Origin: Sulfurimonas sp.
GTDB taxonomy: Bacteria; Campylobacterota; Campylobacteria; Campylobacterales; Sulfurimonadaceae
DNA: 41,603 nucleotides
Reading direction: 5' to 3'
NCBI RefSeq assembly: GCF_014859695.1
Contig: NZ_JACUTS010000012.1
Span: 1 to 41,603 of the forward strand
A model generated the notes under the pieces. The model saw only the letters and a list, made by a program, of their open reading frames with translations, searched no databases and had not been told where the DNA came from. Shown here one piece after another: positions 5,406 to 34,873 of this stretch. The first letter of the stretch is position 1, and the number at the start of each line of letters is the position of its first letter. Made by a program: the position numbers and the translations under genes.

Positions 5406-5516
5406 TCAAAATATATCACTTAAGAGATATCCTGTGTTAGCTTAATATTTTTCAGCTTTTCACTAAAACATAATTTCAAATAAAACTAGTTTCATGAGCC
5501 CACTGCTGAAGTGAAC

Positions 5517-5531
5517 TTAGCGTTAGCGTAG
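5517..5531 (-). repeat. Family-2 repeat core in the rpsL-rpsG spacer
   Basis: On minus this reads CTACGCTAACGCTAA, the same 15-mer as at 15530-15544 and 17651-17665. The match extends with GTT and, a few bases on, CTTCAGCAG, which is shared with the copy at 17651. Next to it, GAAACG (5533-5538) pairs with CGTTTC (5547-5552). The spacer thus forms local RNA structure between two cotranscribed genes. Confidence 0.6.
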
Positions 5532-5575
5532 TGAAACGGACTTGTTCGTTTCGCGTACTAATTAATGTTTAGGTT

Positions 5576-15510: not shown

Positions 15511-15581
15511 AAAGAAGTAATTCTTTAGGCTACGCTAACGCTAAATTTCCCTCGGCGGGAAGCCCATCGCACTTGTGCGAT
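15511..15581. repeat. Hairpin chain with family-2 repeat core, rplJ-rplL spacer
   Basis: In order on plus: AAAGAA/TTCTTT (15511-15526), the core CTACGCTAACGCTAA (15530-15544), TTCCC/GGGAA (15547-15561) and ATCGCAC/GTGCGAT (15566-15581). The core is identical to those at 5517-5531 (inverted) and 17651-17665. The spacer lies between two genes that are normally translated at different ratios, so mRNA processing or stability is a reasonable guess. Confidence 0.6.
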
Positions 15582-16140: not shown

Positions 16141-16200
16141 CAACAGGAATACCAACTATTAATCGGCAGATTAAGCTTTCGCTCCTATATCTTCAGTCCA
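16141..16200 (-). promoter_or_regulatory. Probable L10 leader (autoregulatory mRNA site)
   Basis: On minus the sequence contains GACTGAAG, then AGGAGCGAAAGCTTAATCTG and CCGA, ending 28 nt before the rplJ ATG. The arrangement ...GAAG/AGGAGC...GCTTAATC-TGCCGA resembles, from memory, the kink-turn part of L10 leaders, where the L10(L12)4 complex binds and represses rplJL translation. No covariance search was run. Confidence 0.5.
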
Positions 16201-16231
16201 TAAAATGCAGTTACCAAAGTAGTAACTTGAT

Positions 16232-16253
16232 AGTGCTTTACGAATAAAGCACT
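16232..16253 (-). other. UUCG-tetraloop hairpin in the rplA-rplJ spacer
   Basis: On minus: AGTGCTTTA-TTCG-TAAAGCACT, a perfect 9-bp stem closed by a TTCG loop. A second hairpin, AGTTAC/GTAACT, lies at about 16209-16227. Neither has a U-tract. They sit between the family-1 repeat and the L10 leader, and may be processing or stability structures. Confidence 0.55.
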
Positions 16254-16270
16254 AAAAATCACTCTCTCAC

Positions 16271-16412
16271 TGATGTTATGCACTAAAACGAACGCGTCCA
16301 TTTTAGTGGCAGAGACAGATGTCCCTACAACCCCCTAAAGCTGCGAAAAACTTGTTTTTCGAGATTCACGAGGTGTTTCTACAAACTTTTTTTCAAAAGT
16401 TGCATAACGTCA
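16271..16412 (+). repeat. Family-1 structured repeat, copy A (~140 bp)
   Basis: The ends are inverted: TGATGTTATGCA (16271-16282) against TGCATAACGTCA (16401-16412). Internal hairpins: CACTAAAA/TTTTAGTG (16281-16288 with 16301-16308), GACA/TGTC (16314-16323), CGAAAAAC/GTTTTTCG (16344-16361) and AACTTTT/AAAAGTT (16384-16401). The linker GTCCCTACAACCCCCT is shared with copies B and C. The element ends one base before the rplA stop codon (16414-16416). It has no coding capacity. Confidence 0.8.
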
Positions 16413-16413
16413 G

Positions 16414-17597: not shown

Positions 17598-17650
17598 TTA
17601 TTTTCCTTTTTATTATTTTAATTAACGCAATCTGAACAAAGTCCAGCTTG

Positions 17651-17665
17651 CTACGCTAACGCTAA
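17651..17665 (+). repeat. Family-2 repeat core, nusG-rplK spacer
   Basis: CTACGCTAACGCTAA, identical to 15530-15544 and to 5517-5531 (inverted). It is followed by GTTTCA and, at about 17692-17700, CTTCAGCAG, as in the rpsL-rpsG copy. A perfect palindrome GCGACTAGTCGC lies at 17711-17722. Confidence 0.6.
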
Positions 17666-17724
17666 GTTTCACCCTCAAGGGGGCATAGATATCTTCAGCA
17701 GAACGCTCGCGCGACTAGTCGCTT

Positions 17725-17778
17725 TAAACTACGCTAACATTAAACTTTTATAAAAAAATCTAATGTTAGCGTAGTTTA
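17725..17778. repeat. Perfect 18-bp inverted repeat just after nusG
   Basis: The left arm is TAAACTACGCTAACATTA (17725-17742) and the right arm its exact complement (17761-17778), with an 18-nt A/T-rich loop. On minus the hairpin begins 7 nt past the nusG stop. It shares CTACGCTAAC with the family-2 core. A stem of this length could be an RNase III substrate or a partial terminator. Confidence 0.8.
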
Positions 17779-31566: not shown

Positions 31567-31591
31567 TATTTTATTGCCTTCATTTATTATT

Positions 31592-31730
31592 TGATGTTAT
31601 GCACTAAAACGAACGCGTCCGTTTTAGTGGCAGGGACTAAAGTCCCTACAACCCCCTGAAGCTACGAAAAACAAGTTTTTCGAGAACTACAAAGTATTTT
31701 TTACGCCTTTTTTGTGAAAATGCGTAGGTT
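31592..31730 (+). repeat. Family-1 structured repeat, copy B
   Basis: The left end TGATGTTATGCAC matches copy A; the right end is less conserved. Hairpins: CACTAAAACG/CGTTTTAGTG (31602-31611 with 31620-31629), GGGACT/AGTCCC (31633-31646), CGAAAAAC/GTTTTTCG (31665-31682), and TACGC/GCGTA near the right end. It lies between tkt and the ispA stop (31733), ending about 2 nt from that stop. Confidence 0.8.
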
Positions 31731-31732
31731 AG

Positions 31733-34666: not shown

Positions 34667-34723
34667 GCAAAAATAATCTCATAAATATTAATGCGTATAA
34701 ATAACTTTTTTTCTTTAAGAATC

Positions 34724-34865
34724 TGACCCCTTACGCACTTTTGCAAAAAAGTTCGTAAATACCTCTAATCTTCTCGAAAAGTACCCTTTTCGTAGCTTTA
34801 GGGGGTTGTAGGGACATTTGTCCCTGCCACTAAAACGGACGCGTTCGTTTTAGTGCGTAACATCA
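34724..34865 (-). repeat. Family-1 structured repeat, copy C (inverted)
   Basis: The terminal inverted repeat is TTACGCAC (34731-34738) against GTGCGTAA (34853-34860), with outer TGA/TCA. Hairpins: CACTAAAACG/CGTTTTAGTG (34828-34837 with 34846-34855), GGGACA/TGTCCC (34811-34824), CGAAAAG/CTTTTCG (34775-34792) and ACTTTT/AAAAGT near the end. Orientation is opposite to copies A and B. It ends 8 nt from the murE stop (34874). Confidence 0.8.
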
Positions 34866-34873
34866 GTAAGAAT

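Follow-up and report, generated by a model that had tools for sequence, protein, structure and literature searches.

A short transposon family with a conserved three-hairpin core in Sulfurimonas and other Campylobacterales

What kind of element recurs between the genes of a Sulfurimonas genome with hairpins whose arms change together from copy to copy? The question arises from a stretch of 41,603 nucleotides of Sulfurimonas sp. (contig NZ_JACUTS010000012.1, positions 1 to 41,603), which we call the window. A preliminary description recognised three copies of a repeat that share a linker and three hairpins, and left open whether the repeat is a MITE, a REP-like element or an RNA. All three copies lie where they had been described and are slightly longer once the terminal C/G is included. 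The features are as follows.

16270–16413, plus strand: MITE copy A, in the spacer between rplA (L1) and rplJ (L10), both genes on the minus strand
16280–16308, plus strand: hairpin H1 of copy A, conserved tip CGAAC..GTCC[G/A], with an A x C mismatch (G.T/G.U on the other strand)
16311–16328, plus strand: hairpin H2 of copy A, AGAGAC..GTCCCT; consensus AGGGAC..GTCCCT
16329–16345, plus strand: nearly invariant unpaired linker of copy A, ACAACCCCCTAAAGCTG; consensus ACAACCCCCTAAAGCTAC
16346–16364, plus strand: hairpin H3 of copy A, CGAAAAAC..GTTTTTCG, then the conserved GAGA
31591–31732, plus strand: MITE copy B, flanked by minus-strand genes for transketolase and polyprenyl synthetase
34716–34722, minus strand: right 7-bp target duplication of copy C, ATTCTTA, read directly
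34723–34866, minus strand: MITE copy C, 7 nt downstream of a Mur ligase gene
34867–34873, minus strand: left 7-bp target duplication of copy C, ATTCTTA, read directly

The arms quoted earlier for hairpin 2 (GGGACT/AGTCCC in copy B, GGGACA/TGTCCC in copy C), for hairpin 3 (CGAAAAAC/GTTTTTCG in copies A and B, CGAAAAG/CTTTTCG in copy C) and for the ends (TTATGCA/TGCATAA in copy A, TTACGCA/TGCGTAA in copy C) are correct. In copy A, hairpin 2 contains a single mismatch (GAGACA/TGTCCC); in copy B, the two ends no longer match each other perfectly. Two features come in addition to those first described: a fourth hairpin, at the right end of the element, and the target duplication of copy C. Copy C also has an additional GG beside its right end. 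The right end of copy A touches the rplA stop codon and no target duplication is recognisable; that of copy B touches the stop codon of the polyprenyl synthetase gene, and its ends are partly decayed, without a perfect duplication. In copies A and B the duplication has been lost or was never present. Our covariance model hits copy A at 16272–16368 and copy B at 31593–31689, the latter with the top score in the genome sample. Copy A fills the rplA/rplJ spacer (window 16156–16413), which is the usual place of the L10 autoregulatory leader.

Ends, target duplications and spread

The element is a non-autonomous transposon (MITE) of about 140 bp. Most copies are 120–145 bp long, contain no transposase gene and have inverted ends (CTGATGTTACGCAC / CTGACCTTACGCAC, with the pattern CTGA[TC][GC]TTACGCA); they start CTGATGTTACGCAC and finish GTGCGTAAGGTCAG. 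Perfect 7-bp direct repeats lie directly outside the ends of 26 of the 73 distinct two-ended copies, compared with a mean of 0.7 and a maximum of 4 when the pairing of flanks is shuffled. Across repeat lengths from 3 to 12, there is a large excess at 7 only, that is, the duplication has a fixed length. Two copies that are broken at contig ends (C101/C49 and C52/C85) re-pair through reverse-complementary 7-mers. Empty sites are found as well: the spacer orthologous to that of copy C lacks the element in a Sulfurimonas crateris MAG (L259), and the copy at L299 has an orthologous empty site at L034. Together with ends that match those of an insertion sequence (IS, next section), the target duplications and empty sites establish the MITE option of the preliminary description.

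Other MITEs, of 230–280 bp, are present in genomes of the same genus (L128 1501–1766, L130 791–1038, L133 1501–1768 and L144). They have the same CTGACCTTACGCA ends and unrelated interiors; the CTGACCTTACGCA ends carry several different cargoes.

A search of this and related genomes, suggested at the outset as a check, shows that the family is far larger than three copies. In the window's own genome (a draft of 2.37 Mb in 186 contigs) BLAST finds 43 places (at least 40 copies) and the covariance model at least 55 copies. The end pattern matches 60+58 times, against 9+16 times for a reversed control. This abundance is far beyond chance. The core is present in 84 of the 399 sampled genomes of the order, spread over 21 of 87 genera, and a closed genome from another family (G039) has 74 copies, some with 7-bp duplications. 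When 84,980 species were scanned with a 22-base pattern, every title among the matches listed was Campylobacterota or a genus within the phylum, to which the element is likely restricted.

Some copies contain smaller inserted pieces. Module 1 is a hairpin of about 33 nt (TGTCATGGAGTATGCCATTGGTTAGCATACCTA) that directly follows the CCCCCT of the linker in many copies; it has 20 sites in the window's genome, a few of them apparently outside the MITE, and its loci there include L023, L024, L025, L084, L089, L090, L110, L111, L115, L117 and L121. Module 2, of about 41 nt (AAGCTAATGCGGTTTTCACGAAGTGAAAATGTTTCTTTAGA), sits within H1 or H3 stems with AAAAC on both sides (L110, L116, L120 and L121 in the window's genome, L314 and L335 in other species), much like a very small mobile unit that makes a 5-bp duplication of its own. 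At L004 and L115 there is a 14-nt deletion form of Module 2 (TCTAAAGAAACTTC between GTTTT repeats). The window also holds a second repeat family (GCTACGCTAACGCTAA), partly in the form of hairpins, at 5514–5543, 15523–15548, 17639–17669 and 17722–17778.

The likely mobiliser

Several contigs of the window's genome enter a different element that has the same 14-bp end (CTGACCTTACGCACC) and break off after about 50 nt of it, as is expected of a multi-copy IS that has been collapsed by the assembler. One end of this IS encodes ANQITYSELQKLKGA-stop, and the other has a start codon at the corresponding place; the MITE thus shares its ends with an IS in the same genome whose transposase start and stop lie at contig ends. 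The 7-mer TTACTAT beside the IS at contig end C106 is the reverse complement of ATAGTAA at contig end C10; joining the two ends restores a single IS insertion flanked by a 7-bp duplication. A deletion element derived from the IS (L160) is flanked by TTAATAA on both sides.

A full-length element with a transposase and the same ends, which the preliminary description recommended looking for, is found as a relative in genome G225; the window's genome shows two ends only. In G225 a frame of 351 codons has the C-terminus IKANQVAFTELQRLKGA-stop, which matches ANQITYSELQKLKGA, and the inverted ends are those of the IS in the window's genome. The right end of the MITE tracks lineage, being CTGACCTTACGCAC in the window's genome (G000) and CTGACGTTACGCAA in G039 and its family f4, and a partial IS of G076, from the same genus as G039, starts CTGACGTTACGCAA.

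The G225 protein scores 329.8 bits against the NCBIfam profile NF049921 (IS701_2, cut-off 250), and the profile match of the mobiliser rests on this protein, the transposase of the window's genome being known from its C-terminal residues. Its motif IYEKRWKVEEYHKSLK is a complete Y(2)R(3)E(6)K, and the spacing is the same in G003. Typical IS701 elements produce duplications of exactly 4 bp and lack a complete YREK; ISPepr1, a subgroup of the IS4 family, has 5'-CT ends, AT-rich targets, 7–8 bp duplications and a complete YREK (PMC2266710). The mobiliser straddles these published definitions. It is like IS701 in that NCBIfam assigns its transposase to IS701_2, and like ISPepr1 in its 5'-CT ends, AT-rich targets, 7-bp duplication and complete YREK (PMC2266710). 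Neither the 4-bp duplication nor the incomplete motif of IS701 was found: one IS copy, the L160 deletion element and the MITEs all have 7-bp duplications, and the motif is complete in G225 and equally spaced in G003 (PMC2266710).

The likely mobiliser of the MITE is an IS4/IS701-type insertion sequence that shares its ends. Through these ends, the DDE transposase of the resident IS would move the element of about 120–145 bp in trans, and each insertion would duplicate 7 bp of an AT-rich target. The best full-length IS relatives (G225 and G003) have no perfect target duplication, and no cognate transposase was detectable in the MITE-rich genomes G005, G021 and G039. MITEs are present in 5 of 12 transposase-positive genomes compared with 84 of all 399 sampled; the presence of the transposase weakly predicts that of the MITE.

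A folded core between the ends

Without guidance, RNAalifold predicts three hairpins (H1, H2 and H3) from 29 diverse copies. With the structure fixed, 94–95% of cells pair, and pairing falls below 50% when the partners are slid by one column. We used a plain MAFFT alignment (A1) and two that were built by fitting to the model and are biased in its favour (A2 and A3); for nearly all measures none of 500 shuffles reaches the observed covariation, the exception being the number of double-change pairs in A3, which 11 of 500 reach. Hence, covariation in the larger alignment is strong by both the shuffle and the slid-column control, and it goes beyond chance as in a structured RNA family.

The outer stem of H1 and the stem of H3 are mostly replaced between genomes and still pair, with column identity near zero at many of their positions among G000, G035 and G039. 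The H1 tip, H2, the linker CCCCCTAAAGCT and the GAGA are near 100% identical across the compared genomes. The interior is a separate cargo and is not derived from the mobiliser IS. G052 belongs to another family and has, at L135 and L147, a MITE that shares the ends and contains an H1-like hairpin (CGAGCAAATCCCG) but differs in the remainder, which suggests that conservation of the H1 tip extends outside the core family.

One could argue that the arms change together for mechanical reasons, through hairpin-templated repair and the exchange of whole hairpins between copies, and not through selection on the fold. This would fit the large excess of both-side over one-side changes, the whole-hairpin swaps within one genome (H3 is CGAAAAAC..GTTTTTCG or CCCCTATC..GATAGGGG) and the nested hairpin modules. 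However, templating should remove the A x C that is conserved in H1 and should not hold the unpaired segments invariant; moreover, where a genome has one or two copies, the stems found at orthologous sites are different in sequence and pair nonetheless. We consider a purely mechanical origin unlikely.

The two strands do not fold equally well. The A x C mismatch in the H1 tip, kept in 141 of 199 copies, is a G.U pair on the opposite strand. The strand reading AGGGGGTTGTAGGGAC folds better as RNA by about 6 kcal/mol in 182 of 193 copies, a difference that is gone once G.U pairs are excluded. For the window copies, predicted z-scores are -4.3, -6.4 and -5.9 on the AGGGGGTTGTAGGGAC strand versus -2.3, -4.2 and -2.3. 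These predictions hint at an RNA role for the AGGGGGTTGTAGGGAC strand. The opposite idea, based on wobble counts, that there is no RNA strand at all was dropped, since the other strand carries the G.U pairs.

Could the core then be primarily a functional RNA (an sRNA or a cis-acting mRNA element) that became enclosed by IS ends and is now a mobile RNA module, with its fold selected as a transcript of the AGGGGGTTGTAGGGAC strand? The G.U-dependent folding advantage, the stronger z-scores in all three window copies, the G.U reading of the H1 tip and the persistence of the element at two orthologous sites (S1 and S2, described below) speak for it. The mRNA at S1 and S2, however, contains the other strand, orientation bias relative to genes is absent, and a conserved promoter was not noticed upstream of the AGGGGGTTGTAGGGAC-strand core. 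Among varying pairs, wobbles show a modest asymmetry (87 vs 58, from copies that are non-independent). A search of Rfam, at the gathering or a relaxed threshold, returned no known RNA family, in agreement with the earlier remark that no named family matches. This origin of the core is possible, but we find it doubtful.

The positions of the copies look like those of tolerated insertions and not like those of a strand-specific regulator. In 134 of the 155 copies with enough flank, overlap with an ORF does not exceed 50 nt. Convergent spacers are over-represented (33 of 134 copies, compared with about 12% of spacer length). In tandem gene pairs 39 copies have the same and 39 the opposite orientation, and a strand-specific cis-regulator was rejected on this count. 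Among the observations that the preliminary description had named as speaking against a selected fold (three copies only, no covariation in a larger alignment, random placement relative to genes), the randomness of orientation was found and the others were not. A spacer between ilvE-like and hflK-like genes holds the element in opposite orientations in different species (L021, L335, L036 and L351) and looks like a hotspot with independent insertions.

A comparison of the neighbours of all copies revealed two sites common to distinct species. Site S1 lies between genes that, by resemblance, are putatively DUF3972-like (upstream) and DUF89-like (downstream). The element is found there in five species, in the same place and orientation, with the right half missing in all, and in most species the TGA of the left TIR is at the stop codon of the upstream gene. 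A 23-nt segment (TCCCTACAACCCCCTAAAGCTAC) is identical in all five species, and the H1 stems differ between species and still pair, in a setting where third codon positions of the flanking genes are 37–55% identical in distant pairs (about 37–60% for S1 and S2 together). Site S2 is presumably the purU/trmL spacer, again named by resemblance. Here three species have the element, including G033, in which it is the sole copy found by the model; at L332 the element is missing and the two genes are 15 nt apart.

Judged from these alignments, some copies look constrained in place at orthologous operon spacers. Old copies in multi-copy genomes could be refreshed by gene conversion, but a genome that has one or two copies contains no donors for it, which makes constraint in place the simplest reading. 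Independent re-insertion at S1 is possible; it needs the same base, the same orientation and then loss of the same half. That the core is retained after the transposon ends have decayed suggests domestication, probably as a structural element at the mRNA level. Selection on the folded form, one of the options raised at the start, is supported by the covariation and by persistence at the orthologous sites.

Our preferred explanation, to which we give a probability of about 0.78, is that the MITE is moved in trans by an IS4/IS701-type transposase, carries the folded core as a separate cargo and has been domesticated in a minority of copies, the core fold being preserved as a single strand over at least three families. 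The cargo, three hairpins with nearly invariant unpaired joints, would be selected as a folded strand. Most copies would be tolerated intergenic insertions; the minority at orthologous operon spacers would have lost the transposon ends and kept the core as an mRNA-level structural element. More tentatively, the core might be a functional nucleic-acid module that spreads with IS ends, is repeatedly domesticated in operon spacers and controls mRNA processing or stability there.

MITE interiors are usually viewed as freely decaying filler. The cargo of the present element, by contrast, is unrelated to the mobiliser and has retained its exact fold and invariant linkers throughout many families of Campylobacterales. 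The element is thus a specific example, open to testing, of structured mobile DNA turning into host sequence, and its natural stem variants could be swapped in assays.

Comparison with known repeats

A literature search returned nothing relevant on MITEs or palindromic repeats in Sulfurimonas or Campylobacterota, or on such elements from IS701. The closest parallels come from other bacteria.

Hairpin repeats of the REP/BIME type are moved by RAYT (Y1) transposases, and the present element recalls them in that GTAG precedes H2 on its minus strand (GTAG-GGAC..GTCC in Sulfurimonas copies) and that the window's genome has two Y1 genes. Yet a RAYT gene flanked by the repeat, the hallmark of a REP/RAYT system, was found at no fetched Y1 gene: the core lies beside none of them, and the nearest is about 8 kb away. 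Genome G021 has 20 copies and no Y1 match, and in family f4 the GTAG is replaced. Y1 transposition is, moreover, not expected to leave 7-bp duplications. A REP/RAYT origin was rejected as highly improbable, and the REP-like option of the preliminary description is not supported, given Y1 loci without an adjoining core and G021 without a Y1 match.

BOX of Streptococcus pneumoniae is a modular, structured, MITE-like intergenic repeat with variable internal modules and a predicted folded RNA, and its mobilisation via an IS with similar ends has been proposed (PMC3049150). The present element is likewise a structured intergenic MITE with a predicted fold and an IS with similar ends. However, BOX varies in boxB number, whereas the present element has a fixed three-hairpin core with lineage-specific covarying stems (PMC3049150). 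Correia/NEMIS of Neisseria are also short MITEs with inverted ends; RNase III cuts their transcripts at these ends, and they can affect mRNA when co-transcribed (PMC10969869). They differ in ends, length and host, and the conserved part of the present element is an interior multi-hairpin core (PMC10969869). ERIC / RU-1 of Enterobacteria is a structured intergenic mobile repeat of about 127 bp with effects on mRNA 3' ends (PMC10969869, PMC2759123), in different hosts. The sequence of BOX is unrelated as far as known and no sequence relation is known for ERIC / RU-1, relations to BOX, NEMIS/Correia and ERIC being judged through Rfam and the papers alone (PMC3049150, PMC10969869).

Strong covariation over an order, with stems replaced around constant loops, is unusual. 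The repeat is best read as a new family of MITEs, similar in kind to BOX, Correia/NEMIS and ERIC; its folded core is conserved and has a putative function.
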